A DNA stretch of 64,000 nt from Pilasporangium apinafurcum (lineage: Eukaryota > Oomycota > Peronosporomycetes > Pythiales > Pythiaceae): contig BCKE01000015.1 of NCBI GenBank assembly GCA_001600495.1, positions 386,315 through 450,314 on the forward strand, given 5' to 3'. Under the pieces are notes generated by a model, which was not told where the DNA came from, did no database searches, and saw only the letters and a program-made list of their open reading frames with translations. Positions 4,338-59,691 of this stretch are shown piece after piece (position 1 is the first letter of the stretch; each line of letters begins with the position of its first letter). Both the position numbers and the translations under genes were made by a program.

Positions 4338-7300
4338 CTAAATGGATATATCTCCGACAGACTTTTCGGCAGTTGCTGCGTAGTCCATCGCTTGCTGTTC
4401 TTCGAGCAGTTTCTGCTGTCGCTCAATTTCATCGTAATCAATGTTGGACAAAAACGAAATGACCAGCAATGAGACCACACCCATCTTGATCAACTGCCGA
4501 ATGTCCTTGAGCGTCATAGACTTGATTGAAGCAAAGAAGATCTGTGGCGCAAAGATTAAGAGACAAAACTGATCCCAAACGAAAGCACCGAGTACATCTA
4601 GAGCCAGCAACCATGTCAGCATCCGCGCAAATCGCGGATCGGGCATTGGAACGATCTGCAACACCTTGTTGAATAGTGGCATAGCTTCCGTGCACAGCAA
4701 AAACACACCGACAATGCTGATTCCCAGTGAGTAGAGCAAACCGGGATTCTCTGTCATGCTCTTCATAAAAGGACGTCCTTTGTAGTTGACTGCACAGACA
4801 CTCACGGTCTGCACACCGTTGATCAAGAAGATAACTGTACTCATGACGTTCGGTGTAAATTCACCAGGACGCGAGTGCTTGAAATCGCCCTCGGGTGTGT
4901 ACTCCTTCGCCAAGTTCGTCATATAGATCATACAGCCCAAATGCAACGCGAATTGACCGACAAGACTCGAAAACAACGCTGGGTGAAAGATTGACGTAAG
5001 TGGTCGCACAGGCGACAATTCCGCCAACGGCGTAGCACGGCTGAGTGTGATGCTCGAGACGGTCGAGACAATCCCAAGAGCCATCAATTGCGAATTCGCG
5101 TACTTGACCTTGTCCAGATACAGCACCGACAACGAATAAGAGCTGATGAGGCAGTTGACCGCGAGAATCTGGTACATCTGCATGGTTGTCACTAGTGCGC
5201 ACCGGCCCTGGCGAATGATATCGACACAACCCTTGATCGACGGAGCTCTCGAAGTAAATGGTGAAGCGATCGATGCGTCGCCCAATTTTACCATCGGTAC
5301 CTCCCCATCTTCAAAGTCGTCCATGTACTGCGCCATCGCCGCGTTATTCGCGAAATTTGCAAAACCCTTCGAGCCCGTACGTTCAGCCATGCGTTTCTTG
5401 TTTTCTTCCGCTTCCCGCTTGGCAAACGCCGCAATCGCCTTCATTCGTGCAAATGACTCGCCGCGTGCCTGGCGTTCCCGGACATCCGCTTCAATTTCGG
5501 CTTGTTTCTTCTTCATCAACTCAGCCTGTTCTTCCTTCGTGGGCGCTTTCTTAATAAACGGATTCGTCTTCTTCTTTGCAGCTGCAGTGGCCTTGGCTTG
5601 CTCCGACTTTAGAATCAATTCGACATAGTCTTTCTTTTCCTTGCATTGCGAGAAATCAATCTGCTTTTGCACAAGTCGTTTCTTTAGGGCCGACACATGA
5701 AGCTTCATCAAGTCTTCACGAGACGACACATTCGAGACGCCACCCTTCTGGTATTTAGTGAGCCCAGTTACGCTTTTGTCCGCATTCGCCGAACCAAATC
5801 CACCCAAGAGAGCGACACCGACATGTGCCTGCTTCAACGCCCCGACATCGTTGCCTCCATCACCACACATAAGCGTATAGTGCCCGTTCTTCTTCAAGCA
5901 CGTCAGCACTTTCTCTTTCAGTTCAGGAGTCATACGCGCAAAGACACGAATATGATTGACGTACTTCCAGATCAGATCATCAATTTCACCCGCAGCAATC
6001 AACGTCTTGCCATTGACACACAAATCGTATTTCTTGACTAACACAGGTATATCCGAGCTCTTGTAGGTTTCCATGACGCTATCATCTTCCGCTCGCGTCC
6101 AGATAATTGGATCTGACGCAGTTTTTCCTTCAGTCAAAATCAAGGCTGGGCGAGTGATAATTCCGACTTCTTTTGAAACATGAACAGCTGTGAGAGTCGC
6201 ATCACCTGTGATCATCGATACCTGATGAGAACTGTCCTTGAGCATTTTCACAATCTCTCCACTGTCTTTGCGAACCAAACATTGGAAGATCGCAAATCCA
6301 GCGAATTTCAAGTCACTTTCCGCCCAACTACGTGGGTGACGCGCAATTTCCTGGTCACTAGGTTTCCCGTCGATATCCCTGTATGCCAACGCCAGCACAC
6401 GCATACCTTTCCGAGCTAAATTTCGGTATGTTGGCCAGTACCACGATGGAATCGAATCCTTTTGTAGCAAGTTACTCACCGCTTCGGGACTGCCTTTCAC
6501 TAACGACCGATAGCGCAAGCCTCTCTCCCCCAAATGCACTTTCGCAACTACGCTCATACGTTGCAACTTGGAGGCAAAGTGGTTACGGTGTAAAATCTGC
6601 ACAAATACTTCCTTCTGGTTGACCGACGCACCCCATCGCCGCTCCCCAGTACGATCGGAGTCGTTCTTGACCTGACAATGACGCGTCGAGGCATCATACG
6701 AGAAATCAATGGCACGAATCGATGCTTCTTCGACCGGATCACCGACCATTTTGCCATCGATTTGCACAAGCGATTGGCAACCAGCAAGTACAAGCGTGGC
6801 GTCCAAGTTCGCAGCGATCATTGGTACATGCGAGCGCACATCGCTATCTGCAGCAGCACTATTTTTCCCCGTCGTATCTTCACACACTACGCCCACCGCC
6901 GTAAGTTGATCCGTAGTGAGCGTACCAGTCTTGTCAAATAAACAAATATCAACCTTCCCCGCCAAAGAAATTCGGAACGGTTCCGTGCAGAAAATCGACA
7001 GTTTGACAAGCGAAAGCAACGCTGTATTGACAGCCATGGCGGTCTGCATCGGTAGCTCAGCGGGGATCACACTTGTGATGATCATCACACAGCGCAACAA
7101 CAATTCAAATGTGATTTTCCCCTTCTGTGCGATCCCATGACGCAACACATAACCCGACGAAAGCAAAGCAAAAATCAGCAACAAGAATGCCAATCCATAT
7201 GCATCCCACGAACTCCCCGTGACTTTTCCACTTGAGTACTCGATCATACGCACCAACTTTCCTTGAGAAGAACTGAACCCTGTGCGCAAAACGTAGGCAG

Positions 7301-20244: not shown

Positions 20245-22104
20245 CTAAAATCCGTTTGCGGCGTGATGATGATTGCGTGCCGATTGAGGAGCACGGAGGA
20301 GCACCGACGAAGGCGACGAGGGTGGTGATGACGACAGTGATGGCGGCGGCAACCGTGGAGGAGACTTGGCACTCAAATTGGCCATCGTCACGCGCGGACG
20401 CGGAGGCATCCGCAGTGCCGAACGATATAATGTGCCATTATAGCCGTTCCTGGTGGTTGTTTTGCCATCAATGGCAGCGGTATTGCCATCTTTAAAGCTC
20501 GTCCTCAGTGACGGCGGCCAATTCATGATGATATGCCGAATCGAGTGCTCGTTGCGTGCCTGGAATCGTTCCATCAGCGTCCGTGCAGCCTCCACTGAGA
20601 AGTCTGGCATATTTCGAAGCGCCGTGCGCTGAATGAGGTCTAGCATTTCGTCGTACGTCATCAATACACCCAGCTCAGCACGTGCCACGATCACGCGGAT
20701 GATACCAGCTTCGTCATCTGGATGCAAATACCCCTCCACGGTCGGTGATTTGTCTCCCGAGGCACGTTTCTTCACACGGCGATGCAGAGCCGCAAAATGT
20801 ACGCCGTAGATCTTGGCCGCGGCGCGCAGGCTCATTCCCTGCCGTTCCACGGCGGCGATGGCTTTCTCCCACGTTTCAGGTGGCACTGTGTGGCTTAATT
20901 TATAATCGCGCTGCCGTTCACTACTGTTCCCATTAGCACTTCCAGTGGTAGAAGTATTCGACGACGACAACCCCATGCCGTTTGATGTATCGTTCGTATT
21001 CATACGTATATTTGTTGATCCGTTGTCCCCACCGTTCTCATAGCTATCGCCGCTGCTGCTGTTGCTTCCGGAATTGCTGGTCGTGCCGTTATTGCTAAAC
21101 TCTTCGTCATGGTCTACTAAACTTGTATGGTCCGAGTTTTTCTTCCACCAATTCTGGTGTTGTTGCTGAAAACTCAACGGCTGTGGAGGGGGGGGTTGAA
21201 GCTGTACTTGTTGACTGGTTTCTCCTTTTCGTCGGTGCGAATTATCGTAGTAAAAATCGTCGTGATACGCGGCTTTGAACGGGGTGTAGTCTCGTAATCT
21301 CAACAATGGCATGTCTGACACATTTTTGTGTTTTGATTGCTGCTGCTGTTGCTGTCGGCTCCACGACTCAGAGTTTGCCTCCTCATCCTCCATGCTGCCG
21401 TCTTCTTCGTTATCCTCAGCGTCTCTGTCCTCACCAAACCTCTCAACTTCTTCATGGTTGTCTGTATTATTCGCACAACTAATGACAGCCATTGACGAAG
21501 GCGGATACGCATACCGGTTGAGTTTGTCGAAACCGTGCGCGCGCTTGAACTCGACAACCCACTGCTGCGGGGGAAACTCTGGGTAGAGTGCCCGCGTACC
21601 CCCCCTACTAGCGATCGCGCGAACCACGAAGCGGATACCGTCGGAGGTAATGTGCTTTTCGTGCAGGAATTGTTCGCGCAGAATGCCAAGTATTTCACCC
21701 TCGTCGTCCTCTGTGAGGAAAGATCGCATGTCAAACGTCGTTGCGGCCGATGGTAGTAAGTTTGCTAACGACATGGCCGATGACGTTGATGTTGACGGTG
21801 GAAGAGGGGGAGGGAGAGGAGGTGGTGGTGGTTGAGGAAGAGGAGAGCAGGAAGTGATGGTGGTGGACGTAGACGTAGTGGCTGTGGATGCCGCGTTAGA
21901 CAATGGAGATTGACTGGAATGTGTCGGATACCGACCACGTACGCGACGATGTAACGACATGTGGTGCACGCCGTAGAGCTGCGCGGCCTGCCGCAGGCTC
22001 ATCTTTTGCACTTTGACCGCATGGATAGCGCGACTCCATACTTCTTCGCTCACGGTTCGACTTGCTGAGCGATGTTGCGAATGGTGGTGCTGGTTGCGGT
22101 TCAT
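20245..22104 (-). CDS. HTH-psq domain protein with two DNA-binding domains
   Basis: Single-exon protein of 619 residues from ATG 22104. Two helix-turn-helix units of the Pipsqueak/CENP-B type are visible. One is near residues 20-60 (SLRQAAQLYGVHHMSLHRRV) and the other near 405-450 (SLRAAAKIYGVHFAALHRRV). They are clearly related to each other, so they probably arose by duplication. Between them lie acidic stretches, Gln-rich stretches (RQQQQQQ) and Ser/Asn/Gly low-complexity sequence. Each HTH is followed by a segment with a shared theme of acidic residues, then GILREQFL or RVIVARAEL. It is likely a sequence-specific nuclear factor. A domesticated transposase origin is typical for this domain, but no transposase catalytic domain is present. 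Confidence 0.8.
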   Translation of the reverse strand: MNRNQHHHSQHRSASRTVSEEVWSRAIHAVKVQKMSLRQAAQLYGVHHMSLHRRVRGRYPTHSSQSPLSNAASTATTSTSTTITSCSPLPQPPPPPLPPPLPPSTSTSSAMSLANLLPSAATTFDMRSFLTEDDEGEILGILREQFLHEKHITSDGIRFVVRAIASRGGTRALYPEFPPQQWVVEFKRAHGFDKLNRYAYPPSSMAVISCANNTDNHEEVERFGEDRDAEDNEEDGSMEDEEANSESWSRQQQQQQSKHKNVSDMPLLRLRDYTPFKAAYHDDFYYDNSHRRKGETSQQVQLQPPPPQPLSFQQQHQNWWKKNSDHTSLVDHDEEFSNNGTTSNSGSNSSSGDSYENGGDNGSTNIRMNTNDTSNGMGLSSSNTSTTGSANGNSSERQRDYKLSHTVPPETWEKAIAAVERQGMSLRAAAKIYGVHFAALHRRVKKRASGDKSPTVEGYLHPDDEAGIIRVIVARAELGVLMTYDEMLDLIQRTALRNMPDFSVEAARTLMERFQARNEHSIRHIIMNWPPSLRTSFKDGNTAAIDGKTTTRNGYNGTLYRSALRMPPRPRVTMANLSAKSPPRLPPPSLSSSPPSSPSSVLLRAPQSARNHHHAANGF

Positions 22105-30045: not shown

Positions 30046-30100
30046 CCGAAGGACGGAAGCTTAGTGACTAACTTATAGTGTTAGACAAGTATTTTACCCT

Positions 30101-30720
30101 CTATTGCCCATTGATCTCAGCGGCGGGATTTTGCCTCGTTCAATAAAGGCTAAGTCATCACGGCGCTTAAATGATGACTTAACTTCTATCATCCACTTCT
30201 CCTACCTCTAAGATACGCTTGTGTTTTTCAAAGCGAACAGATTCGCATCAATAGACACAGAAATTTATTTCCAATTCTCTGTAACGAACTCTTCTCTCTG
30301 CTATCCTTCTTTTCAAGAACGGATGCGAAGCGATGATGTCGGACATGCATCACAAAGTCTCCAAGTGGTTGTCGGACAACTACCATGAATCCCTTCTTCC
30401 ATTCTTTGGGATTTCAGAGATGAGGTCCAAACAAGATGTCAAAAGCAATGCTCACATGGTCTCACTACAAGTTCAAAAAGCTACTGAGGTTCAATATGAA
30501 AAGGACTGAAGGAAAGATGATCGAGTGTGAGGAACAGTATACAATAAAGACTTATTCTCAGAGTCCAGGTGTCGAAGATGCCAACTCTGCGGTTATTTAG
30601 TCTTAATTAGCTTTTGTTAGTCAAGTTAAACCCAAACGAAAACCAGGAGATCCATTCTGGAGTACTTTCGTATCTCATATGATCCTTGAGGTGAGATGTA
30701 GACCACAAAAGAAAGATGCA
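30101..30720 (+). mobile_element. Fanzor (eukaryotic TnpB) relic, copy A
   Basis: This is a decayed element in which frames still read as Fanzor/TnpB nuclease pieces. At 30345-30430 MHHKVSKWLSDNYHESLLP followed by ISEM matches the region around RuvC motif II, but the LPEFE-like site reads LPFFG, so the catalytic Glu is lost. After a frameshift, AMLTWSHYKFKKLLR (about 30440-30490) is the hallmark WSHY helix. A deletion then leads to the C-terminal end SRCRRCQLCG and a TAG near 30620. The right end (30590-30690) and the left end TATTGCCCATTGATCTCA (30102-30119) are shared with copy B. The block CTCCTACCTCTAAGATAC near 30205 is shared with copy D. It is inactive. Confidence 0.7.
30151..30181. 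repeat. Perfect 10-base inverted repeat inside Fanzor copy A
   Basis: Arms TAAGTCATCA (30151-30160) and TGATGACTTA (30172-30181) pair perfectly around an 11-base spacer. It lies 105 bases downstream of the IQ/EF-hand stop codon and inside the left part of element copy A. It shares the TAAGT/ACTTA theme with the hairpins near 9.3 and 10.0 kb. Confidence 0.75.
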
Positions 30721-30918
30721 GACACAAAAACACAACAGTAGTTTAAATTAGCAAAGAACACTATGTATTAGCTGAGTGCACTTTAGAGGTTTACGACTCC
30801 TTTCTATTTAGTAAGTCATGTCCAAATCTACGGTCCGCAACGCTTTGAAATGAAAAAAACACACGCTTCGACGACATATGCATAGCATTGCCATATCGAT
30901 ATCGACGGGGTAAACACC

Positions 30919-32886
30919 TTAGTCGACTTCTTCGATCTTTGGGCCCTGGTCAGCACCGCCCGACGGTGGTGGGGCACCAGCACCTGGCATACCGCCTGGT
31001 GCGCCACCAGGCATGCCACCGGCAGCGCCACCCGCAGCCGCGTACATCTTCTGCAAGATTGGGTTGGCGACACCTTCCAATTCCTTTTGCTTGGCTTCAA
31101 ACTCTTCCTTTTCAGCCGATTGGTTCGAGTCCAACCAGTTGATCGTGTCCGTGACCTTGTCGTCAATGACCTTGCGGTCATCTTCCGAGATCTGGCTCTT
31201 GAGTTTCTCGTCGTTCAACGTGTTGCGCAAGTTGTACGCGTAGTTTTCCAAACCGTTCTTGGCTTCAATGCGCACCTTGTTGGCTTCATCTTCAGCCTTG
31301 TACTTCTCGGCTTCAGCAACCATGCGTTCAATATCGGCTTGCGAAAGACGGCCCTTGTCGTTGGTAATGGTGATCTTGTTTTCCTTACCAGTCGACTTTT
31401 CAACCGCAGACACGTTCAAGATACCGTTGGCATCAATGTCAAAGGTGACATCGATCTGTGGCACACCACGAGGCATCGGTGGGATGCCATCCAAGTTGAA
31501 CTTGCCCAACAAGTTGTTGTCGCGGGTCATCGAACGTTCACCTTCAAAGACCTGAATCAACACACCAGGCTGGTTGTCGGCGTAGGTCGAGAAAGTCTGC
31601 GACTTCTTGGTAGGCACAGTCGTGTTACGGGCGATCAAAGTGGTCATAACACCACCGGCGGTTTCCAAACCAAGCGACAATGGGGTCACATCAAGCAACA
31701 ACAGATCCTGAAGCTTTTCAGATTGGTCGTTACCGCTCAAAATGGCAGCCTGGACAGTAGCACCGAAGGCAACAGCTTCATCGGGGTTAATCGACTTGCA
31801 AGGCTCCTTGCCGTTGAAGAATTCCGAAAGCAATTGCTGCACCTTGGGGATACGGGTGGATCCACCGACAAGCACAACTTCGTGCACTTGGCTCTTCGAA
31901 AGCTTCGAGTCACGAAGCACCTTTTCGACAGGTTCCATGGTCTTGCGGAAGAAGTCGAAGCACATTTCTTCGAAACGAGCACGGGTGATGGTCGAGTTGA
32001 AGTCAACACCATCGAAAAGCGAGTCAATTTCGATGTAGGCCTGGGCCGACGACGAAAGCGTACGCTTAGCACGTTCACAGGCAGTACGCAGACGGCGGAG
32101 CGCACGTTGGTTCGACGTGATGTCCTTGCGGTGCTTGCGCTTGAATTCCGCGACGAAGTGGTCGACAAGACGGTTATCAAAATCTTCACCACCCAAGTGA
32201 GTGTCACCAGCAGTGGCCTTCACTTCGAAAATACCTTCTTCAATGCTCAAGAGCGACACATCGAAAGTACCGCCACCAAGATCGAAGATGAGCACGTTGC
32301 GTTCGCCACCCTTCTTGTCCAAACCGTAGGCAATAGCGGCAGCAGTTGGTTCGTTAATGATACGGAGCACGTTCATACCAGCAATGGCACCGGCATCCTT
32401 GGTGGCCTGACGTTGCGAATCGTTGAAATAGGCCGGGACGGTAATGACTGCATTCTTGACCTCCTTACCAATGAAAGCTTCAGCGACTTCCTTCATCTTG
32501 ATGAGGACCATCGACGAGATTTCTTCTGGTTGGAACGTCTTCTCTTCACCCTTGAAGGTGACCGTGATTTGTGGCTTGTCGCCAGCGCCAGGGGTGACCT
32601 TGAATGGCCAGTGCTTGATATCAGCCTGGACGATTGGGTCACTGAATTTGCGACCGATCAAACGCTTGGCATCAAAGACCGTGTTGTGCGCATTCATGGC
32701 GACTTGGTTCTTGGCGGCATCACCGATGAGACGTTCGGTATCGGTGAAAGCGACGTACGATGGGGTCGTACGGTTACCTTGGTCGTTGGCGATGATTTCC
32801 ACACGGTCGTTTTGCCACACACCGACGCACGAGTAGGTCGTACCGAGATCGATACCGACCGAGTATCCAGACACAGCTTGAGCCAT
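30919..32886 (-). CDS. HSP70: Cytosolic heat-shock protein 70
   Basis: Protein of 655 residues in one exon from ATG 32886. It begins [15 protein letters not shown], has the phosphate-binding and adenosine motifs ([28 protein letters not shown]), and ends GPKIEEVD, the EEVD tail of cytosolic/nuclear HSP70s that binds TPR co-chaperones. A Gly/Ala/Met/Pro-rich linker precedes the tail. It folds nascent and stressed proteins with ATP. Codon choice is strongly biased (few synonymous codons, mostly C- or G-ending), which fits constitutive high expression and leaves a long antisense open frame. A paralogue lies at 42373-44340 on the other strand. Confidence 0.98.
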
Positions 32887-33922
32887 CTTGTCTTGTTGAG
32901 TAATTGCTTGTTGTTTCTTCTTCGAGTCAAAATCCGAAATGAGCAAATGGGAGCCACAGAAAGTGGAAAGATATGCTAAGGGGAGGAAAGAGGGATTGTC
33001 CACAGTAGTAGTTTTTGGTCGCACACAAGTTCGAGATAAATCGATAGCAAGTTGACAAAGCAGTTGGTCGTAATGAACGATGATTGATGAATATGAGGTT
33101 GCATTACGAATTATAACCAATAGAATTTGTTAAAACGATCAGTTACATGGAGGTGCGAGTGTACGTGGCATCCAGAGTTGGTCGGAAAGGAGATGGACTG
33201 TATAATAGTGTGACTCACTTGGGGTTTGTATGAGGATGGCTGAGATCGAATGTTCGAGAACATTTGGGTCCGAAAGACAATCATTCTCAAAGCGTTTCTG
33301 GGTTTTGCTAGCATACAAAAGAAAAAAAAAGATTTTTGGCCAATGGTAGATCCTAATGAGACTTATGAACGCTGCGATACGTAGAAACCAGGTTACGGGT
33401 GTCACATCGAACAACTTCGACATCTTTTCGCAAAGATATACTGCTGCTTCTGGAAGAAATGCCAAGCACTCAGCTACGATTGCTCTCTTGTGCATATCTG
33501 GAATTCTCTCGATAAAAGTTTCATTACTTTCGCCAAGCAGCACGAGTGTGCATGGAATACAAAGAAATGGTTGAGTATACTGCTTGGATGGATGGATGGA
33601 TCTCAGCGATCATCGACAGAAGTGTATGTTCCAACATAATCCAGAAACAGTGCTATTTACAACAACGACAACAACTTGATCATTAGCTCTTCCACCGTTG
33701 AATCTGACGCAACCCCATACGTTGTTCTACTCACCTTGTCGTCGTTGTAGGATCCGTTGGATGATCTGCTCGTGAGCTCTGCAGTATGGAAAGACACAAC
33801 AACTTGATGAGCGTCCAGATTGTGGTGATTCATGGTTAATCTCTTAGTCTTCATATGCACCTCCATTTGGCGACAATCTCTCGTTTTTGTGGCGTGATTC
33901 GCGTGGCGCACGAATAAATAAA
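32887..33922. other. Region upstream of HSP70 with a weak coding-like segment
   Basis: This 1 kb contains the HSP70 promoter, with no clear heat-shock element seen. On the minus strand a stretch at 33139-33600 is open and has protein-like composition (LVLLGESNETF, AFLPEAAVYLCEKM, TWFLRIAAF). A second short open stretch at about 33740-33880 ends at a GTGAGT donor. The two could be exons of an undefined gene, but I could not join them in phase. Confidence 0.3.
33585..33602 (+). repeat. Short (TGGA)n microsatellite
   Basis: Four units of a TGGA tetranucleotide (ttggatggatggatggat). Confidence 0.7.
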
Positions 33923-35466
33923 CTATATCGGCATCAAGAAGAACACGATAATATCAATAAAGTCGGATCCGACGATTGTCGTCTCATAACATACCGTAGA
34001 GAGGCTATTTAACACGACAAAGACGACGATCGACAGACCAATAAATCGCATGAGCGTCCCGAAATCTACAGTTTTAAGCAGATAGTCAAGTATCGAGTAC
34101 CATTCGTGGTTGTGCTGCTTTCTTTTCGCTTTCTTCGACAACTTACCTGGCTTACTCTCTCCTGGAAATAACAACGATTGGAGCCCACGATAGAGTGCAT
34201 TCACTTGCTCCATCACATAACGCGCATCTAAGACAACTTGGGGCAAATGATCCTGGTATTCGGCCTATGATCACATAGAATACAATATCACAGAGAAAAT
34301 AACCACACCATGAATATCATCGCGTTGGCAACGTACCACCAATGTAATGAACGTCACTAGCGGTATCATCCATGCACAGACAGACAAAAAACCAGCCACA
34401 ATTTCTCGTGCTCGCCGGGCTGCGCATTCCCGCTCATCTTTTGCAAGCAACTCGCGCGTTCTCGTCAGTACAGCCTCACAATCTGTGTCAACTTGACTGA
34501 GATTGTCTTGCACCTTTTGGTGAATCGCTGTATCAATAGCTGCACAGACATCATGGAGCTGATTGACATCATTTTCATGGTTGATATTCATAGCTGCATG
34601 GTCAGGCAGCCAAATCGTAGGGATCTCAAGGCCATGCTGGTTGTTGATATTATCTTTGATGTTTTGCGTGATCTGTACCATTAGCTTCATCAGTTCCTTG
34701 GTGCTTGTGACGGTATCTGCCTTGGTCAAATAGTACCTAGCAAATGACGAAATCAATAGAGTAAAGCGATATTTGTCGGCCAATAATCTAAATCCACTCA
34801 CTTGAGTTTGTCAAAGTGTTTGGTATTCAGCTCCTTCACAACGCTCATCGTACGTGAGCATAGCGCTTGACCCATGGGATCCAAAAACACAAATATCAGA
34901 TCGCAATGGTCGGCAAACTCGACAATTGCATCATTCACATCGAATGGATACGCAATATTGCCATCCACTAATCCAGGTGAGTCAATAAAATCGACCATTG
35001 CGAACTCACGTTGCATGGAGTCACTCACACAAGTCTGGAGATTATCCACAAGTGGTTTGCCAAATTTCTGCTTCAGCAACTGCAAATACGGATAGAGCAT
35101 GACCGTTGAGTCACCCTTAATGGGTGCTAGTGTTTTCTTCGTGCCACTCGTGACGATTGTGAACCCCTGCGTCTCAATGGCCATACCCGTGCGCTGGATT
35201 TCGTCTCCAACGTACCAGTTGATGAAAGATGATTTACCGGCACTGTGGTTGCCGATCACAAGTACATTCACTTTCCGCCGCGGTGGATGGATCACCAGGT
35301 CCACGGATTGTGCGAGCATCGAGATTCCGTCGTTGACGTCTGTGTAGAGCGTATGGATATCTTTCATGATCTCCACGGCGTTGCGGTCAGATTTAGTACG
35401 CGATCCCTGAGTATTGACGGATGTCATGGCCGTAGTGGACACATTGGCGTTGGTCTTATGCAGCAT
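33923..35466 (-). CDS. EHD/dynamin-superfamily GTPase with C-terminal membrane helices
   Basis: Three exons (34802-35466, 34337-34736, 33923-34264), 468 residues, phases consistent, start at ATG 35466. GTPase motifs: P-loop GNHSAGKSS, then FTIVTSG in the switch region, IDSPGLVDG (G3) and TKAD (G4, restored across the first intron). FDPMGQALC is characteristic of the EHD/sarcalumenin-type branch. A first hydrophobic stretch is near residue 335-355 (AGFLSVCAWMIPLVTFITLV). Two more lie at the C-terminus (FIGLSIVVFVVLNSL, FIDIIVFFLMPI). No EH domain is present. It probably remodels or tethers an intracellular membrane by GTP-driven assembly. Animals and protists have such EHD-like membrane-anchored proteins; the substrate membrane is unknown. 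Confidence 0.8.
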
Positions 35467-35851
35467 GATGCACAAGGTGTTTTGATGCCCTCTTCAATAT
35501 TGGCAGACCTTTCGTCTACAGAACAAAATTTCTCTGTTGCCTGTCCCACTATCGTCAATTATTGTTCTCGCAAGCAATAAGTATTGTTGCCAGTATTTTT
35601 TGTCTGAAACAATAAATTACATATAAATAGTCACTATATAAGAAATCTCATAAATAAGGGAATTTTTTCAATATATTGAAATTGGGGACATTTACACACA
35701 ATAATTGTATATATTTCAGTACAGAGGATAATGCTGTATAGTGCCAGTAACTTTTGTCATATTAACCGGAGGAAAAATTTGTTTCAGATATGCAATTTCT
35801 GATACTATATAGAAATAGGTGTTTTTATATTTTAAAATAGAATCTTAATCT

Positions 35852-36310
35852 TTATTGCCCATTGATCTCACCGATGAGAAATATATCCTATTTGTAGGAT
35901 GCACTTTGACCTAATTTTTAAAGCAAATCGATCCCTATCGATAGAAGTAAAAACTCGTTTCGAATTCTCCACAATGATCTCTCTTTTTCTCAAGAACGGA
36001 TATGAGTTGATGACAGTGCATGCCCAAGGAGATCAAATGTGTGAAAAATCAAAGTGATTGTTCTGAAAGCGTAGCACGATAGTATTGGTGTGAAAGGAAG
36101 GCAAAGAGCATACATACAACTGCGAGGAACACTATACAACAAAGACTTGTTCTCAGAGTCTAGGCGTCGAAGATGTCTACTCTGTGACTGTAGTCTTAAT
36201 TAGCTTTTATTAGCTTTTGTTAGTCAAGTCGGACCCAAACTAACACATCAGGAGGTCCTCCCTGAGGTACTTTCGTATCTCATATGAACTCTTCGAGGTT
36301 GAAAAATCCA
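35852..36310 (+). mobile_element. Fanzor relic, copy B (internally deleted)
   Basis: The left end TATTGCCCATTGATCTCA (35853-35870) and right end GTACTTTCGTATCTCATATGA (near 36268-36288) are identical to copy A over 18 and 21 bases. In between it keeps the block around 35925-36010 (TCGTTTCGAATTCTC, AAGAACGGATATGA) shared with copies A and D. It also keeps the piece GTGTGAAAAATCAAAGTGAT (36038-36057), shared with copy D. The C-terminal coding end reads SRRRRCLLCD, with the first Cys of the pair changed to Arg. Most of the nuclease gene is deleted, which makes it a short non-autonomous or dead copy. The 3' part is the best preserved. Confidence 0.65.
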
Positions 36311-36465
36311 TCGGTGTTTATACTAATTAGCGTATATAGGGCTGATTTCTTGGGAACATCGTGGGTTCACTTTTCGTACTTAAGGGAAAGGTCGCTCTTT
36401 GGTAACAGACAAAGTTGACTGCAACAAGCTCCAGGAGCTCCAATACCATCATATCCATCATCGCA

Positions 36466-37878
36466 ATGGCTAAGGACGTGGGCAACGGGAAGAACGCGGC
36501 CGCCAGCGCAGATCCCTTCTACGTATTTAAAGAGTGCGTGCTTTCCTATTGCTTTGTTTGTTGTTTGAGTGCGTTTGCTGACCGACTGTGTATGAATTCT
36601 CTCCAACGCTGACGTGCCATTTCAATACAGTGAATTGGAGAGCAAGGTGTCGGCTGTGCATCAGAAATACGCCAAGTGGAAAACAGTGTTGGACGCGAAG
36701 GAGTCGTCACTGGCAAAGGAGTTACCTGCACTGACCACGCGTACGTGCTTGTCGCAATGCAAGTTAATTGTTGCTGACTTGGTGTTTAATTAGTTGCATG
36801 CGCATGATTGCTGTATTCCACAGAGATATCAAATGCAATCGGATCTGCGGAGAATTCACTAAAGTTCTTGGAACAAACTATTGTGATGGTGGAGGCGAAT
36901 CGCTCCAAGTTTGAACACATCGATAATGTACGATATCACATCATTATTGCTCTCTTCTCTAAGGTCCGTACTCACGATTTTTTGTATGCCTGTATGGACT
37001 ATTAGGCGGAAATTGCAAGTCGGAAAGCATTTGTCTCCGCAACTAGAAAGGTAAATCGATTATTGACTGAGCCTAAGTCGTATATTGCATTAAGATTAGG
37101 TTCTAACGTGTATTGCTGCTTTGAGTAGGATCTTCAAAAAGTCTCGAGTGAAATTTCCTCCGACACAGTGAAAGCACGCATCCGAAAGGAGGAGCAAAAG
37201 GTATACGACTGGGAAATAGTTTGACATCATGTCGACAAACATAGCTCAATTGGTTTTGTGTGGTATGATGTACAAACACAGTCGATCAAGCATCGAACGG
37301 CACCTCAAAAACCAACAAATAGAGAAGACGATAACGCTCGCTTTCTCATGGAGGAAAATGAACGGCAAAAGGTAGGTTTACATCAATCTCATTTCTATAT
37401 TGGTCAAAGCTGATAGTTGTATGTTATTGATAATTTGCTAGCAAATCATGAAAGAGCAAGATAAAGGACTGGAGGACCTGTCGAAAGCTGTGGGCGGTTT
37501 GAATCATATGGCGGTCGAAATCAATGACGAAGTCAAGAAGCAAAACCAGTGCGAATATTTCACCCAATTTGCTCTTGAGTGTGTTACAATCCTCTTCACG
37601 ATTGTTTTTTTTAGGATGATCGATGTCTTGACGGATGATGTGGTGGAAACCCAAGAACGGATGAATTTTGTCATGGACCGCATGAGCAAACTTCTGAAAA
37701 CCAAAGGTATGGGAATGCATCTGAGCTTTGCTTGCATTTTATGTGTTCTCACAGAAGCTGTAATGGGTTTGTGGAAAAATTATGTTGATGGCATTTTATA
37801 GATAAATGCCAGATTGGATTGATCATTTTCTTGATGCTAGTATTAGTTTGCATGGTGTTCTTGGTCATCTATACATAA
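36466..37878 (+). CDS. Qc-SNARE, syntaxin-6/Tlg1 type
   Basis: Nine exons: 36466-36533, 36631-36740, 36824-36927, 37006-37050, 37129-37200, 37282-37371, 37442-37548, 37615-37706, 37802-37878; 254 residues. The N-terminal DPFYVFKDELE and the helical region after it match the syntaxin-6 N-terminal domain. The SNARE helix follows (QDKGLEDLSKAVGGLNHMA ... VVETQERMNFVMDRMSKLL) with a central-layer glutamine in the Q-SNARE position. A single C-terminal membrane anchor (IGLIIFLMLVLVCMVFLVIY) ends at the stop. Syntaxin 6 acts in fusion of endosome-derived vesicles with the trans-Golgi network. The splice joins restore all SNARE heptads, which supports the exon model. Confidence 0.9.
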
Positions 37879-38182
37879 CGCAGTAGAACACATAGACACA
37901 AGAGAAGCAAAATTCACACACTAGTAAGTAGTATTTAGTTTAACGTTCAAATACTTGGCAAGATGCCGAACATAGATTTGAGGATTCCTTTCTGTCTTCT
38001 TTCAGTAGTATATGGCTTTCGTTAGCTGACGCACAGCCATTGTTTGGTGTATGTGTATATTTGTAACACAGGAAAATGACTAGAGGATCAACAGAATCAA
38101 ACATTTATTTGTGTATTGTTTGCTTCGACTTGATTGCCGGCATTGCTTTGTGTGGTTTGGTTTTTTGTCTGGGTGGATGGCT
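37879..38182. other. Short intergenic region, no gene seen
   Basis: It separates the stops of the syntaxin and Cys-rich protein genes, which face each other. No coding or RNA feature recognised. Confidence 0.4.
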
Positions 38183-39400
38183 CTAATAACTACATGTATC
38201 TTGCTGCTTGGACTGCATACTATTACTATTTTTCTCTATACTGGGTGGATAATACGGCAGCAACGTTGCCACTTCAAATGGCCTCTGCGGTGGATGATGC
38301 GGAAGCAACGACGTTGGTAACGAGGCCAGTGCGGCCGCAGCCGCAGCGGACGAACGGACGGATACCGAGGATTCCTGGTGTTTGGCCTTGGTGGTGGTGG
38401 AGGAGGAGCTACCCTTAGTGATGATAGTGGCAGAGACGGAGGAGGAGATCCCAGATGGGAGCGGAGAGGACGTGGCCGACGAAGTTGTAGATACTGTGAG
38501 CTGCTGCCGTTGTACCTTCTTCTTACGGTCGAGTTTACGCTGGTTGGCGTTGGCGCGGAGACGATGGTAATTACAGAGATTATGGTAATCACCACAGGAT
38601 TTCAGCGCACGCGCATTATTGCACTTCCCCGTACGATACTTGCATTTCAACTCAGCCGGAGTGATACCTGCTGCGGTGGCATTAGCTCCTGCAACCGCTG
38701 AGTGCGTAGAGGAAGACACAGCCGCAGGACTCTGTGTTGGTGCACCCTGCTGGTGCTGTTGTTGCTGCTGAGGGGATTCAAAGACGTCACGAAAACTCGG
38801 TAACCTAGCTTCCAGCTCGTTCGATGCATCGTCGGCTGGCGGAGGGTGCTGTGTTTTCCTCTTCTTCAGAGTCACGAGCAGTGATTTCATCGAGATGTTG
38901 CCATCAGCACCAACTTCCCATTGGTGCTCGTTATCGCCGTGCTCTACTTTCATAAGCTTCAGGTCATCACTACCGTTGGCGGCAGAAACTGCTTGAGCGT
39001 TGTTTACATATACCTCCATGGACAAACATGCGCTATTCTGCTCCGGATCACGGATACTGAGGTTCCTTGCCGACATATTTCCTCTCCTTCGGGCGAGTAA
39101 ATTGGCTTTGACCTGCAACAATGGGTGGACCCCACCGCTTGGTGCCGCTGTTGCCTGTGGAATGGCTCCATGCGAACCGGTTCCGCTCCTCTCCTCTCCA
39201 CTGTTCCATCGTTGTTCGCTCTCTCCCCCTATGTTACGTTCACTGACGTTACTATGACACGTATCCTCATGATATGAGGAATAGTGAAGCGAATCAGATG
39301 TACTGTCGTCGACCGAGAGGAGCATTTTCTTTGGGTTGCTCAAATTGACAAGTGCGATCGCTTCCTCTTCAAGCGTTCGCCGTGCTTCGTCGTCCAACAT
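38183..39400 (-). CDS. Nuclear-type protein with a compact Cys/His motif
   Basis: Single-exon protein of 405 residues; start placed at ATG 39400 because the codon further upstream in frame is GTG. The only ordered-looking part is near residues 265-310. There CKYRTGKCNNARALKSCGDY is followed by NLCNYHRLRANANQRKLDRK. This gives a C-x6-C-x8-C-x6-C-x2-H zinc-binding candidate followed by a basic helix. The rest is low complexity: a Gln run (PQQQQQHQQG), Ser/Thr-rich tracts and a poly-Ala stretch (RSSAAAAAALAS). Such small Cys/His-plus-basic modules with the LC-x2-HR-x-KAN-like core occur in oomycete nuclear proteins. DNA or RNA binding is inferred, not shown. Confidence 0.7.
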   Translation of the reverse strand: MLDDEARRTLEEEAIALVNLSNPKKMLLSVDDSTSDSLHYSSYHEDTCHSNVSERNIGGESEQRWNSGEERSGTGSHGAIPQATAAPSGGVHPLLQVKANLLARRRGNMSARNLSIRDPEQNSACLSMEVYVNNAQAVSAANGSDDLKLMKVEHGDNEHQWEVGADGNISMKSLLVTLKKRKTQHPPPADDASNELEARLPSFRDVFESPQQQQQHQQGAPTQSPAAVSSSTHSAVAGANATAAGITPAELKCKYRTGKCNNARALKSCGDYHNLCNYHRLRANANQRKLDRKKKVQRQQLTVSTTSSATSSPLPSGISSSVSATIITKGSSSSTTTKAKHQESSVSVRSSAAAAAALASLPTSLLPHHPPQRPFEVATLLPYYPPSIEKNSNSMQSKQQDTCSY

Positions 39401-40249
39401 ACTGGTGTTATAAGTGGTGGTCACGAGTTAAGTACCGACACGGTGTGGTAGTGGATGGTGTGGATCTCTCCTTTGTCGCGGTCTGTGTCTCGGCGAACGT
39501 GCGCGATTGCGTTTGTGCGTGTGTTTGTGGGCCGCGAGCGGATGCTGTGGTTCGTTTGTGTTCTGAGTCTGAGTGGTGGTGTGGGTGTGGTGGGGTTCGC
39601 CTGGTCTCTGTCCTGCGCAAGCGTTTTTATTGGTGGAGGGGTATCGGATCTGGTTCCAACTAATGTTGAATTTCCGGACGAAGAGGAGGATCTCTGCGAT
39701 ATAAATTGGAGGAGCAGAGGGGAGGGAATGAAATGTTGAGATTTCCCTCTTCACGGAGCCGCTTCAATATACGACTAGGAATACGCGTCTTCTTGGAAAC
39801 GAACGGTGACTGGAACGCGCAAAATGACCAATGAACTGGTCTCTACTTGTAATTGATTCGGATTCTTTCCATTTGTGTTTTTGTGTTTTATTATTATTGT
39901 TATTATTATTGGTAGAAGGAGACGAAAACGTTAACTGTTGCAACTGAATCAAGGCTCTTACTCCCGGTTTTGCGAATGCTCGGCTGCTCGACTCAGAAAT
40001 GTGCCGAAGAATAACGAGCTGTAATCAGTAGCGTCTCATAAAGAAACAAACTTCTACCCCCACGACCATTTGCCTGTCCCTTTGCGTAAAGGACGCTTTT
40101 TATCCCCTTAATTCTTCACGGGCTACTAATTTAGTTAAGAAAAAAGTATGGACAAAACAATGGAAAGATCGCAAAATTCAAGGCGCAAGGTGCTTGGCGT
40201 CGTCGAATCTTTTTCAGATTTTCTTTCCTGTGTAGTGCTTACATCTGGA
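39401..40249. other. Region upstream of the Cys-rich gene, with microsatellite
   Basis: Contains the promoter and 5' leader of the minus-strand Cys-rich protein gene, a GT-rich stretch on the plus strand (39480-39620) and an ATT/GTT trinucleotide run at 39888-39910. No gene seen. Confidence 0.4.
39888..39910 (+). repeat. (TTA)n-type microsatellite
   Basis: An interrupted run of ATT trinucleotides with one GTT. Confidence 0.6.
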
Positions 40250-40970
40250 TTATCGAGTGATAGACTCTGATAACAGTTTACGTAAAAGCAGCATAACCTG
40301 GAAACCCGCTACAACTCGTCCAGTACAAGATCATTCAGGAGAAAAACAAAAAACAGGCCGTTTCGAGAAACACACAGTTCCTCCCTCCACTCTTTGAGAT
40401 TGTGGTCCACTTGACTACTGTAGATTCTTGCGTGCCACAATCTCAAGGCAAATGGCGTGTTAAACCAGTAGCTTTTTGGTCCTATTTAGCTAAGTCAACT
40501 TTGATGCTTTCCAGGATATTTCGGTTTCTCCAAGAATGAAGGCATTACAATCAAAGAGCAACTTCCGACACTCGAGAAGATCACTGCTATGTCTGCATTC
40601 CAATGTTGAAAGAATTCCGGTAGACAGACTCCATCTGAACGTGTGTAATCAACCTCGACGTCTGTAGCTTCATCACGCTGTACGACCTTCATGGCATGAC
40701 GTCAAGTGTGGGACAATCAGTACGCGATGAAGTACCAGAAAATTTTGGGCTGTCCGCACTGTAAATTCGTCCTTGACAGAGATGTCAACACTGCTAGAAA
40801 CATTTCGCTCAAGAATGAATACTTACTCATCGAGTCCAGATGTCGAAGATGTCTATTCCGCGGTCGTCTGGTCTTAGCTAGCTTTTGCTAGTCAAATCAG
40901 ACCCAAAGAAAAAAAGGAGATCCTTCCTGAGTTACTCGTATTTCGGTATCTCACATGATTTCTTGAGACT
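40250..40970 (+). mobile_element. Fanzor relic, copy C, with zinc ribbon and RuvC III motif
   Basis: It retains the diagnostic C-terminus: CPHCKFVLDRDVNTARNIS at 40751-40807, the zinc-ribbon Cys pair and DRDVNxARN motif of OrfB/TnpB/Fanzor (catalytic RuvC III Asp present). Just before it, in another frame, SVRDEVPENF is the usual lead into the ribbon. Upstream frames read FLPPLFEI (RuvC II region, Glu kept) near 40390 and a decayed WSHY-like helix near 40470. There are several stops and frameshifts. The ORF ends SFC-stop as in copy A. The right end (40905-40970) resembles copies A and B and is closest to copy D. The left end is not recognisable, so the start is approximate. Inactive. Confidence 0.72.
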
Positions 40971-41019
40971 AAGAGCATAATTTTGCTTGGTTTTAGGATA
41001 ATTGTTCAATTATAAATAG

Positions 41020-41640
41020 TTTTGAGAGTTAATCTCAAGAGATGAGATACCGAAATACAAGTAACTCAGGAAGGACCTCTGTTTCTTGTTTGGCTCCGAC
41101 TCAACCAACAGAAGCTAAGACTAGACTAGATAACTGCGGAATAGTCATTTCGGACTCCTGGACTCGATGAGTCCAAGCGAGTAAGTGTTTGCCAAAAGAT
41201 TCCATAAAATAACTGCCACCAATTCTTGGTTTAAAGTTTGAAGATGCAACTCTCTAATGCTAATGGCGAACAGTGGCTGATTAAACGCCTGTGTACGACT
41301 CAACAGTGTATCGGCGGTAATACCACAGGCATGGACGCATTCAAGACTCCAGCTGCCCCATATAATATCGTATGTGTGATCTTTACCTTCCTTTCGTATC
41401 GACACTACCGCGCTACGCTTTCTTGACAATCACTTTGATTTTCTACGCACTCGATCTCTTCGAGCATGCATTGCCATCGCTTCATATCCGTTCTTAAAAA
41501 AAAGGATAGCGAAGAAAAAAGTTCGTTACAGAGAATTCGAAACGAATTTCTGCTTCTATCGATGTGGATCTGCTCGCTTTAAAAAATACGTCAAAGTGTA
41601 TCTTAGAGGTAGGAGAAATGGAGAATACAGGGCAAGCAAT
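41020..41640 (-). mobile_element. Fanzor relic, copy D (inverted, internally deleted)
   Basis: Read on the minus strand, it begins with the CTCCTACCTCTAAGATAC block (near 41620) shared with copy A. It continues through GAATTCTCTGTAACGAAC and AAGAACGGATATGAAG, also shared with A and B. It ends with GAGTTACTTGTATTTCGGTA (near 41050), the same right end as copy C. Its right end faces that of copy C across roughly 70 bases, so C and D form a large imperfect inverted repeat. A 94-codon open frame remains inside (41145-41429) but lacks the zinc ribbon and DRD motif. It is a short dead or non-autonomous derivative. Confidence 0.62.
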
Positions 41641-42372: not shown

Positions 42373-44340
42373 ATGAGCGAAGAGAAATCGGTGACGGGGC
42401 AAAGTGTGGGCATCGATCTTGGGACAACCTACTCGTGCGTTGGTGTGTGGCAACACGACCGCGTCGAGATCATCGCCAATGATCAGGGCAACCGCACTAC
42501 TCCCTCTTACGTGGCATTTACCGACTCAGAGCGATTGATTGGTGATGCGGCTAAGAATCAGGTCGCCATGAACGCGCACAACACGGTCTTTGACGCCAAG
42601 CGACTTATTGGCCGCAAATTTAGCGACCCAGAAGTACAATCGGATATTCGACATTGGTCATTCAAGGTCACCGGCGGTCCTGGCGACAAGCCACTAATCG
42701 TTGTAAGCTATAAAGGTGAAGAAAAAACGTTCACGCCGGAAGAAATCTCGTCAATGGTGCTAACCAAGATGCGTGAGATCGCCGAGGCCTATATCGGCAA
42801 GCAGGTTAAGAACGCTGTGATCACCGTGCCGGCGTATTTTAATGACTCGCAGCGACAAGCCACTAAGGATGCTGGGGTCATCGCTGGCTTGAATGTGTTG
42901 CGTATGATCAACGAGCCGACCGCAGCAGCGATCGCGTATGGATTGGACAAGAAAGGTGGTGAACACAACGTCTTGATCTTTGACTTGGGAGGTGGTACTT
43001 TTGATGTGTCACTTTTGACAATCGAAGAGGGCATATTTGAGGTCAAAGCCACTGCGGGCGATACCCATTTGGGTGGTGAAGACTTTGACAATCGACTCGT
43101 CGAGTATTTCGCCAGCGAGTTTAAGCGCAAGTACAAAAAGGATTTGTCGACTGCTCAACGATCGTTACGTCGGCTACGAACTTCTTGTGAGCGTGCCAAG
43201 CGCACAGTGAGCTCATCGGCCCAGGCATACATTGAAATTGACTCTTTGTACGAAGGAATTGACTTTAACTCAACTATTACGCGTGCACGATTTGAGGATT
43301 TATGTGCTGATTTGTTCCGTAAAACAATGGAGCCGGTCGAGCGTGTGCTTCGAGACGCTAAGCTCTCGAAACGAGAGGTCAACGAGGTCGTGCTGGTCGG
43401 TGGGTCGACTCGGATCCCAAAAATTCAGCATCTGCTGTCGGATCTTTTCAATGGTAAAGAACTCTACAAGTCGATCAACCCCGATGAAGCAGTCGCGTTT
43501 GGCGCGACCGTACAAGCCGCAATCCTCAGTGGTTCCGACAAATCGTCCAAGCTCCAGGATTTGCTGTTGCTGGATGTCGCACCACTTTCATTGGGACTGG
43601 AAACAGCGGGTGGCGTGATGACGACACTGATCCCACGCAACACAACAGTCCCAACGAAGAAGACGCAGACGTTTTCGACGTATGCGGACAAACAACCGGG
43701 CGTGCTCATTCAAGTGTTTGAAGGGGAGCGCGCAATGACACGGGATAACCATTCGCTGGGCAAATTCAACTTAGACGGAATCCCGCCGATGCCACGTGGT
43801 GTGCCACAGATCGATGTGACATTTGACATTGACGCGAATGGGATCTTGAATGTGTCGGCGGTCGAGAAATCGACGGGCAAAGAAAACAAGATCACAATTA
43901 CGAACGACAAAGGTCGACTTTCCCAGGAAGAGATTGATCGCATGATCGCCGACGCCGAGAAGTACAAGGATGCCGACGAACGCAATAAATTGCGAGTCGA
44001 GTCCAGGAATGCGCTCGAAAACTACACGTACTCGTTACGCAACACGATCCAGGATGAGAAGATCCAGTCTAAAATCGACCCCGCAGACAAGAAGATGCTG
44101 GAAGACAAGATCAGCGAGGTCTTGGACTGGATGGATCAGAATCAGTCGGCGACAAAAGAGGAGTTTGATGCTCAGCAAAAAGAATTGGAGAGTATGGCGA
44201 ACCGGAGCTTGCAAAACTTGTACTCGACAAATCCGAATATGGCTGGTGCTGCTAGTGGTGGTTTCCCTGGTGCTGGAGCGACTGGTGATGGAGGTGATAC
44301 TGGTGGCGAAAAAGGACCAAAGATTGAGGAAGTGGACTGA
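42373..44340 (+). CDS. HSP70: Cytosolic heat-shock protein 70, second copy
   Basis: Single-exon protein of 655 residues, the same length as the copy at 30919-32886 and very similar. It has [43 protein letters not shown] and the terminal EEVD. It differs in the N-terminal residues and has a shorter GGFPGAG-type linker. Codon choice is more relaxed than in the first copy, with more synonymous variation, so the antisense strand is broken by many stops. Together with HSE-like bases upstream this suggests a stress-inducible paralogue, but induction is not shown by the sequence. Confidence 0.97.
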
Positions 44341-47600: not shown

Positions 47601-48583
47601 AATCCACATCTATATCCATTCGAGGCATACCAGTAGCAAAGTCAGCATCATTCTCATTTCCTTCTGCACAGTCGTCCTTTGTGAATTGCAACGATGCCTT
47701 CGCGGGTGACTACAATAATCAAGATTTCGATGATTTTTCCAAGTGGGAAGGGCACTGCTCACTTGAAACCAAAGTGAAAACCTGCATTGATGATATCTGG
47801 AATGATCTTTTTGCACAGCAGATTACAACACTAGAAGCTTTACATGCCGTCAAACACGTGCTTCTACACATTTTCCAAAAATATCAGCGCACTCTGCTTC
47901 GACTTGTTCACCAATTCAGCAAGCGAACAGAGGAGCGAGAATGGGCAGCAGAGATACTAACGAAGCTCAACCATGGTATCAGCGCAAGTGGAGAAATAAT
48001 ACCACTGACACTCACAAAGATGAAACGATGGATGAGAGCAGCGTTATGTCTCGACGATTTTGTAGAGCTTCTCCATGGTGAATTTGCTGTATGGAACAAA
48101 CAGAAAAGGTTACGTGAGCGATTTTCCATGCCTGATAGCGACGATACGAACGATACGACGAGGGGGAAGACACTTGATCCAGAACTTACCCACGATCTCA
48201 TCCACCGGCTTTGTTCATCAAACCTTTATGAAAGCAGTCGTCCAGCGTCATGCTCGTTACCTCAAGAGCAACCATTGGAAAACGAGAAGAGCAGTGGTCA
48301 TCGGACAAAATCCGAACAAAATGAAAATGTCCTGTTGAGTGGTGCCCTACATTTACTCGAATTGGATACATCAAGCGCATCTGAAAGAACGGAGCGATTG
48401 GTAGTAGCACAAGCAATAGCAGACATGGGGAAACGGGAACCTATGATTGGGAATCTACTGGCTGGATTAAGCCGATGCGAACGGATTTCGCAGCTGCATC
48501 TTGAACCTCAGCAAAAGCAGCTGGTTAATATGGTGCAGTCGACGCTAGCTATTCACTACTGCCTTGAGCAGTCATGGTGTTGA
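44678..48583 (+). CDS. STE20-like protein kinase fused to a RhoGAP domain
   Basis: Single-exon protein of 1301 residues from ATG 44678. The N-terminal kinase (about 45-310) is of the STE20/GCK type: Gly loop EGAGAFGRVF, VALKVIP, HRDIKGGNI near 164, DFGVSAQL near 183 and GTPYWMSPEM. A long disordered Ser/Gln-rich linker follows. Near residues 705-945 lies a RhoGAP-like domain that starts FEGVP. It carries the probable arginine finger in IYRIS near 778 and also has YASLIKIFFRELPTPLL. A helical C-terminal part ends at 1301. RhoGAP domains switch off Rho/Rac GTPases, so the protein may couple a kinase signal to actin or polarity control. The kinase motifs and the finger Arg are intact. Confidence 0.88.
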   Translation: MENGDKSSRLSGGRRSAYAITSASNPALKTLGLEEDDPEDIFELQNKEGAGAFGRVFRACYRNNPAKVVALKVIPVALEAGQRGEDIENVRREIQFLRECDHPNVVAFYGAYYKDGALWVAMEYCGGGSVGDVSRNRRLAEQEVSVIMRGALHGLGYLHSRKKIHRDIKGGNILLTTNGQVKIADFGVSAQLRDTMSRRGTFVGTPYWMSPEMIQDSDYDYKSDIWSLGITAIELADQKPPLFDEHPMRVLIQIPRNPPPQLQSPSNWTPEFSQFLQFCLRKDPHERPTAVECLSHPFIVREQHIERVFATGRETLLNTKDANVDGNLHIQQAPAAEVPTAASQVGKEIPQQTAPGDDIELIDENTQRKEAPVNDATIVTQPKREDTTADPPMITETFNKSNDTDEIVHLEEHNKEEESIDTPFTRNAEAAASAGVDINEDCKLSVHGETFRFRQPRQSTSPVSRPPLLSVPDESKYDELLNLSIDESFELPVGIKKKVDGNNTSIVEQDFKHIQQSRPQINVAACSSQPPTEFKLLPAAAQSPVIRRSNQFFNIQGSKSSAGTPVKPSQSPVIHSGVSQQQHQHQQESHRSRAIAHTPARATAKTGGWQNPLADIDASFSRVNMLRLSVSSLSSSTNQLFSTLTQSEHEENQAEPPKQNQEHYVQRSIHQSSLDRESSSSDNLASSMTKSSQSIPLSSNHFIGAPFRVSHNLCVKYNSVAARFEGVPTSEDWLAIHKQFGIALNHLRCRTNSNDQVPALLHMLHRELVQRGGLHCKYIYRISPKQVEVESAKNAIDRGYFDASQVSDLHIYASLIKIFFRELPTPLLHSVVHDDLMKIGKLLNPVTTGNNPTIDTFATAFDAVNDQVQRTLNNISSQERAVLEWLLDHMLEVIYQTARNSMTAQSLAVIMAPNLYCCTSFVTTPAAASALANHAAALVRVLLAWKHHRRSDSLRLSSLLSVSESMQSSGHPMRESTSISIRGIPVAKSASFSFPSAQSSFVNCNDAFAGDYNNQDFDDFSKWEGHCSLETKVKTCIDDIWNDLFAQQITTLEALHAVKHVLLHIFQKYQRTLLRLVHQFSKRTEEREWAAEILTKLNHGISASGEIIPLTLTKMKRWMRAALCLDDFVELLHGEFAVWNKQKRLRERFSMPDSDDTNDTTRGKTLDPELTHDLIHRLCSSNLYESSRPASCSLPQEQPLENEKSSGHRTKSEQNENVLLSGALHLLELDTSSASERTERLVVAQAIADMGKREPMIGNLLAGLSRCERISQLHLEPQQKQLVNMVQSTLAIHYCLEQSWC

Positions 48584-59364: not shown

Positions 59365-59691
59365 TTATCCATGTTCATCTGGAGTTAGAGAAAAGCCCAT
59401 AAGTAAAATATATTTATTGAGTCTCGTCAGTTTGTATTTGTCATTGTGGTCAGTGGGTTTCATCACTTGGGGCTTTGTGACAAAGAGTTGCGTGACTGGT
59501 CTCTTCGTCAACAGCTGCACGTTATCGAAAACGCATTGATGCGGCATAGCCAAGAAGTTTTGGAAGCCCAGTACATTACTCATGGTATTCGATAAAATGG
59601 CGAGTACAACGCGCAACACGATCACACAAAGTTTCGTGATATGTTCAGCAAGTTTTCCACCCACGAGGTCTCCATCAAACTGCTTTGCCTT
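59365..59691 (-). other. Unassigned coding-like stretch between PX genes 3 and 4
   Basis: Open for 108 codons on the minus strand after a stop at 59692-59694. The composition is protein-like and partly hydrophobic (EHITKLCVIVLRVVLAIL, then NFLAMPHQCVFDNVQLL). There is no ATG near the start, and a possible acceptor (TTAAAAG or AAAGCAG) lies at its upstream edge, so it could be a last exon. An upstream exon could not be joined in phase. It has no relation to the PX-like family that I can see. Confidence 0.3.

Follow-up and report, generated by a model that had tools for sequence, protein, structure and literature searches.

Relics of a probable TnpB/Fanzor-type transposable element near two HSP70 genes of Pilasporangium apinafurcum

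Introduction

Bao and Jurka (2013, PMC3627910) list families of Fanzor proteins from metazoa, fungi, algae, amoebae and stramenopiles, so that such eukaryotic families, along with copies carrying internal deletions, have been on record since 2013. Fanzor is reported to be an RNA-guided endonuclease (PMC10432273). In PMC10711439, the Fanzor lineage is defined by a RuvC II glutamate located six residues ahead of the zinc ribbon, together with a DPG motif at RuvC I. There, Fanzor2 stands next to IS607-type TnpBs which have the DPG motif and the alternative glutamate and are called pro-Fanzors. Fanzor1 families, for example those of Pythium, Phytophthora and Albugo, are portrayed in PMC3627910 as part of eukaryotic transposable elements, with a TnpB-like C-terminal region.

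Here we describe four copies of a repeat, A to D, in a stretch of 64,000 nucleotides (the window; all coordinates refer to it) from the oomycete P. apinafurcum (contig BCKE01000015.1, positions 386,315 to 450,314). Judged from their sequences, the copies are very probably inactive relics of one transposable element family, the full-length members of which would have encoded a RuvC nuclease of the TnpB/Fanzor lineage. Copies A and B share the six-residue position of the glutamate with the pro-Fanzors and Fanzor2, but in comparison with these systems, as characterised in PMC10711439, the copies are without DPG, TnpA trace, complete zinc ribbon and open reading frame. With three environmental, IS607-linked TnpB loci (L003, L007 and L009) they have in common the WSHY and HHK helices and the DRD-N-AR-NI region. 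The TnpB-like C-terminal region in a eukaryotic transposable element is shared with the Fanzor1 families; in contrast to those, going by their description in PMC3627910, no inverted repeat of at least 20 bases joining the ends of one copy was detected by self-comparison, and no transposase was seen. CRe-1, CRe-2 and CRe-3, the Fanzor1 elements of Chlamydomonas, include internally deleted or 5’-truncated copies which retain the 3’ end, like copy C, but according to PMC3627910 they are Helitron2 elements with high copy number. This kind of relic is already known from other eukaryotes, and the locus adds another member. Among the literature matches listed, no description of this locus was found, judged by title and partial abstract.

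As relics, the copies alter existing knowledge little. They are nevertheless one more eukaryotic locus where an RNA-guided nuclease family probably lived and died, and their left and right ends can serve as probes for a fuller copy in the host genome.

Results and discussion

Four related copies around the HSP70 genes

The gene content of the window is eukaryotic: Pfam matches were obtained for seven of the nine scanned ORFs, including two HSP70 genes, a kinase-RhoGAP protein, a dynamin-like GTPase and an EF-hand protein. Scans of the window with Rfam (at gathering scores) and for tRNAs gave no match. The copies, their coding remnants and the HSP70 neighbours are as follows (the profile and the frame-tolerant alignment are described below):

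30096-30695, plus strand: copy A (left end 30096-30338; nuclease remnant 30333-30558, in two frames; right end 30527-30695)
30333-30431, plus strand, frame 3: HHK-helix remnant of copy A (profile 21.3 bits; linked with the next part in tblastn to L009, E = 7e-11)
30430-30558, plus strand, frame 1: copy A from the WSHY helix to the start of the zinc ribbon (profile 41.3 bits; tblastn E = 1.8e-7)
30919-33120, minus strand: ORF of the first HSP70 gene, a neighbour outside the element (PF00012, E = 8.5e-267)
35847-36302, plus strand: copy B (left end 35847-36016; stretch shared with D up to 36117; right end 36122-36302)
36127-36150, plus strand: E-HYTTKT-C of copy B, with the glutamate six residues ahead of the first zinc cysteine (frame-tolerant score 60)
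about 40736-40972, plus strand: copy C (second half of the zinc ribbon and RuvC III 40736-40816; right end 40802-40972; left end not found)
41654-41029, minus strand: copy D (left end 41654-41472; right end 41191-41029; coding trace not detected)
42373-44340, plus strand: second HSP70 gene, a neighbour outside the element (PF00012, E = 2.2e-259)

The original prediction placed all four copies between the two HSP70 genes. This is correct for B, C and D only, since copy A is located downstream of the first HSP70 gene, which is on the minus strand.

The relatedness of the four copies, which had also been predicted, was confirmed by blastn within the window. The strongest pair was the left part of B and D (E = 1e-44), followed by the left ends of A and D (E = 2e-36) and the right ends of A and B (E = 1e-34), C and D (E = 5e-26), and A and C (E = 2e-24); the weakest pair used was that of the left ends of A and B (E = 1e-5 to 5e-5). 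A common right end is present in all four copies and a common left end in three of them (A, B and D). As predicted, these three are internally deleted with both ends kept, and they are only about 460-630 bases long. The end models were sequence-only models built from these copies, so that the recovery of the four right ends (E below 1e-34) and three left ends (E below 1e-40) is by construction. In a scan of the window with the left-end model, no left end of copy C was detected. No further convincing copy was found in the 64 kb, the next best match being at E = 0.42 for the right-end model and at E = 0.0095 for the left-end model; the latter, a weak left-end-like match at 48280-48417 on the minus strand (10.2 bits), was taken as chance.

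Identity among the copies is 67-81% in the right ends and 68-79% in the left ends, and by this measure the copies are old. By their right ends, A and B form one pair and C and D the other. In the left ends, however, A resembles D (0.786) more than B (0.679). These discordant groupings may hint at exchange between copies. Since the 400-base flanks (with the left edge of copy C placed at 40700) have nothing in common except for the overlap between C and D and one 24-base match (E = 0.18), the four copies look like separate insertions. Their termini are too worn for target site duplications to be read. Copies C and D head toward each other with their right ends, which are only 56 bases apart (40972-41029). 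In copy A, an inverted repeat of 9 bases with an 11-base loop (AAGTCATCA / TGATGACTT) is found at 30145-30185, within additional sequence close to the left end which B and D do not have.

Environmental relatives

When viral contigs were searched with the copy A peptide, one of three pattern matches was a relative (L001), which is 50% identical to the peptide over 45 aa (E = 4e-7 among the candidates). A pattern search yielded the two stretches L002 and L003, of which L002 was dropped because it has no plus-strand ORF of at least 80 aa at the pattern match. L003 harbours a full-length TnpB (NF040570, E = 2.1e-44), which overlaps with an IS607 TnpA (NF033518, E = 1.5e-53). L007 and L009 originate from pattern searches in which 4 of 235 and 3 of 33 matches, respectively, were confirmed, with L001 and L003 recurring. 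The copy C peptide gave 23 stretches in viral contigs that fit the pattern, none of which was confirmed, and from the same viral contigs the L003 TnpB retrieved only its own.

L003, L007 and L009 each have the DPG motif and the glutamate six residues ahead of the cysteine. L001 is in two frames and has DPG, and the zinc cysteine is absent at the expected place. Similarity to TnpA was detected beside four of the six loci searched (L003, L009, L007 and, in part, L006, which is the contig of L001), while at L010 and L011 there was none at E 1e-3. For the L003 TnpB itself, the NCBIfam model for IS200 TnpB (E = 2.2e-24) outranks that for IS607 (E = 2e-17), both being under the cut-off; the IS607 link thus leans on the neighbouring TnpA.

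The zinc ribbon is reduced in two of these loci. The open frame of 526 codons in L007 (1708-3285) has kept DPG, the alternative glutamate and DRD, and one of the four zinc-ribbon cysteines is left. In L001 (3019-3294), none of the four cysteines is left, but DRD and the alternative glutamate have been kept, as has DPG in the first of its two pieces. From these sequences, a variant of this lineage devoid of the zinc ribbon may exist.

Coding remnants of a RuvC nuclease

A profile of the relatives was built from four contigs (L003, L007, L009, and L001 in two pieces), leaving out L010, L011 and L008, the last of which is a TnpB with the canonical glutamate by our reading. All six-frame stretches of at least 15 residues across the window were scanned with it. 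The three top scores fell in copy A (41.3 and 21.3 bits) and copy C (17.4 bits), while 20 dinucleotide shuffles peaked at 7.9 bits and the reversed window at 4.8 bits. The next score was that of copy B, with 5.8 bits; this is lower than the best shuffles and equal to that of a stretch outside the elements (6067-6180, 5.8 bits). The frame-tolerant alignment comprised eight tests with 200 shuffles each. No shuffle was as good as copy A (score 151), the zinc region of copy C (score 67) or copy B (score 60, shuffle maximum 59). No coding similarity above the shuffles was found in copy D (score 39; 101 of 200 as good), in its inner stretch (score 32; 153 of 200) or in the stretch shared by B and D (score 29; 127 of 200). 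A putative RuvC I remnant in C was discarded as evidence, because the scores of 40540-40715 (37, equalled by 44 of 200) and 40100-40715 (39, equalled by 137 of 200) are within the shuffle range.

The helices predicted for copy A are indeed there. WSHYKFKK is present in the frame 1 stretch, which is matched by the L003 TnpB in the tblastn search listed above, and the LHHK-like helix corresponds to the HHK helix in frame 3, the L009 protein spanning both stretches. The frame 1 stretch matches positions 1-33 of PF07282 (named Cas12f1-like_TNB in this search) with E = 0.016, under the curated score of 26.3 bits. In copy C, the peptide CPHCKFVLDRDVNTARN, predicted to represent zinc ribbon and RuvC III, was located at 40751-40801, and the zinc-ribbon profile search that had been proposed as a check gave a match of 40700-40888 to PF07282 positions 39-60 (E = 1.7e-5) with 25.3 bits, just below the curated score. 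Thus, A and C match complementary halves of the domain. Of three fragments compared with NCBIfam, only that of C gave matches (E = 0.0028 to 0.0057), which do not separate IS607 from IS200 TnpB. In the PDB, the copy A peptide had no match up to E = 10; the copy C peptide had 11 weak matches, the best of which is a chain named Transposase (E = 0.22), and several of which are CTCF.

Based on the sequences, A and C can firmly be regarded as coding remnants of the TnpB/Fanzor family. The coding trace of B taken alone is marginal; its membership in the family is supported by DNA similarity to the other copies, including A, with 88% identity over 64 bases of the coding stretch of B. Membership of D is likewise supported, the tie being the DNA similarity of its ends alone. 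The claim of four decayed TnpB/Fanzor members therefore holds by coding evidence for A and C, marginally so for B, and by DNA similarity for B and D.

It had also been suggested to look for intact D-E-D residues, and here the outcome was negative. None of the copies retains the RuvC triad: in A and B only the glutamate is left, in C only the DRD of RuvC III, and RuvC I was recognised in none. Therefore all four are dead; since they are relics, the missing triad counts against function and not against ancestry.

The alternative glutamate, at a distance of six residues ahead of the first CxxC, is present in copy A (E-QYTIKT-Y; codon 30532-30534), where a tyrosine (30553-30555) occupies the first cysteine position, and in copy B (E-HYTTKT-C), with the same spacing as in L003, L007 and L009. 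This site falls outside what C and D cover. At the canonical RuvC II place, copy A has no glutamate and reads LLPFFG, compared by eye to VLEDLK in L008. DPG is absent from the three frames of every copy, the RuvC I region being apparently lost. As far as these short remnants can tell, copies A and B show half of the Fanzor fingerprint, the glutamate, and the name Fanzor is supported by this position and by the eukaryotic setting.

Parent element and decay

We considered whether the peptide resemblance could be due to chance, the repeats being an unrelated transposon family. Every remnant is short, with nothing detectable in D and little in B, as such a coincidence would have it. However, the scores of A and C were reached neither by shuffles nor by the reversed window, and the two stretches of A, although in different frames, are colinear in the protein and were linked in one tblastn match, which makes chance extremely improbable. 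Given a parent of the TnpB/Fanzor lineage, it was more likely Fanzor2-like than Fanzor1. This leaning is favoured by the IS607 TnpA genes adjoining the nearest relatives (L003, L009, L007 and partly L001/L006), relatives that are few and were fished with the copy A peptide and their own peptides from collections without eukaryote genomes. It is distinctly possible, albeit doubtful, that a Fanzor1, carried by a cut-and-paste or Helitron-type transposon of eukaryotes, was the parent instead of a Fanzor2/IS607-like element. The eukaryotes listed in Table 1 of PMC3627910 have more Fanzor1 than Fanzor2 families, and the one IS607 TnpA used as query, that of L003, left no trace in the window, its best tblastn match (E = 0.085) being at 59410-59532, outside the copies. 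The latter says little about the parent, because the copies are internally deleted. Besides the neighbours of the relatives, two more points are against a Fanzor1 parent. No chain listed in the PDB for L003 (21 sequences, E up to 1) or for alignment A1 (29 sequences, E up to 10) bears the name Fanzor, and in copy C the spacing from the last cysteine to RD is five residues, the shortest allowed.

By analogy to the family, the living enzyme of the full-length parent, presumably a TnpB/Fanzor-lineage RuvC nuclease, would have been guided by RNA from the right end of the element and would have cut DNA adjoining a short motif. Such cutting may help the element to persist, while a separate transposase or recombinase would do the moving. 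What the copies display is a frame change, large internal losses, and C-terminal nuclease remnants in A, C and, marginally, B. According to the original prediction, the internal deletions revealed an active family with non-autonomous derivatives. The sequences do not establish this. The internal breakpoint of A differs from those of B and D: about 100 inner bases beyond the left end, 79% identical between B and D, are missing from A. The breakpoint differences do not show mobilised derivatives, because independent deletions after insertion would give the same picture. That the deleted copies moved as non-autonomous derivatives of an active source, as opposed to decaying after insertion, nevertheless has a nearly even chance. 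The ends kept in A, B and D and the same 100 bases past the left end in B and D would fit such mobilisation, but the losses differ between A and the other two and also between B and D, in a sample of only four copies, and copy C is without a left end.

Right ends and neighbourhood

When folding was compared to that of shuffled sequences, the right ends did somewhat better than most of these, with z values of -2.03 (A), -2.92 (B), -2.03 (C) and -1.59 (D), and the two left ends that were folded gave -0.35 (A) and -1.25 (D). In the single-sequence folds of the right ends, C and D are unlike A and B in the first half, which counts against one conserved structure. In the consensus structure, derived from the same right-end alignment, 94.0% of the cells are paired. 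Covariation is weak, with four two-sided pair changes (shuffled mean 1.7; 17 of 500 as high) and also four in one slid control. Because four sequences are compared, the structural signal is a hint only, and we take it as a weak hint that the right ends could be a former guide RNA. It is tempting to go further and to speculate that the right ends, kept by all four copies, are still transcribed and load a Fanzor made elsewhere, the deleted copies being maintained as guide-RNA-only elements. We consider this very unlikely; if true, trans-acting guides would be clustered around a heat-shock locus.

Apart from the copies, the window contains at 20245-22104 (minus strand) an ORF of 619 aa, in which two helix-turn-helix stretches of the Psq type were recognised (PF05225, E = 5.6e-17). 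Judged by this domain, its product may be a regulator or, alternatively, related to the pogo-type transposases.
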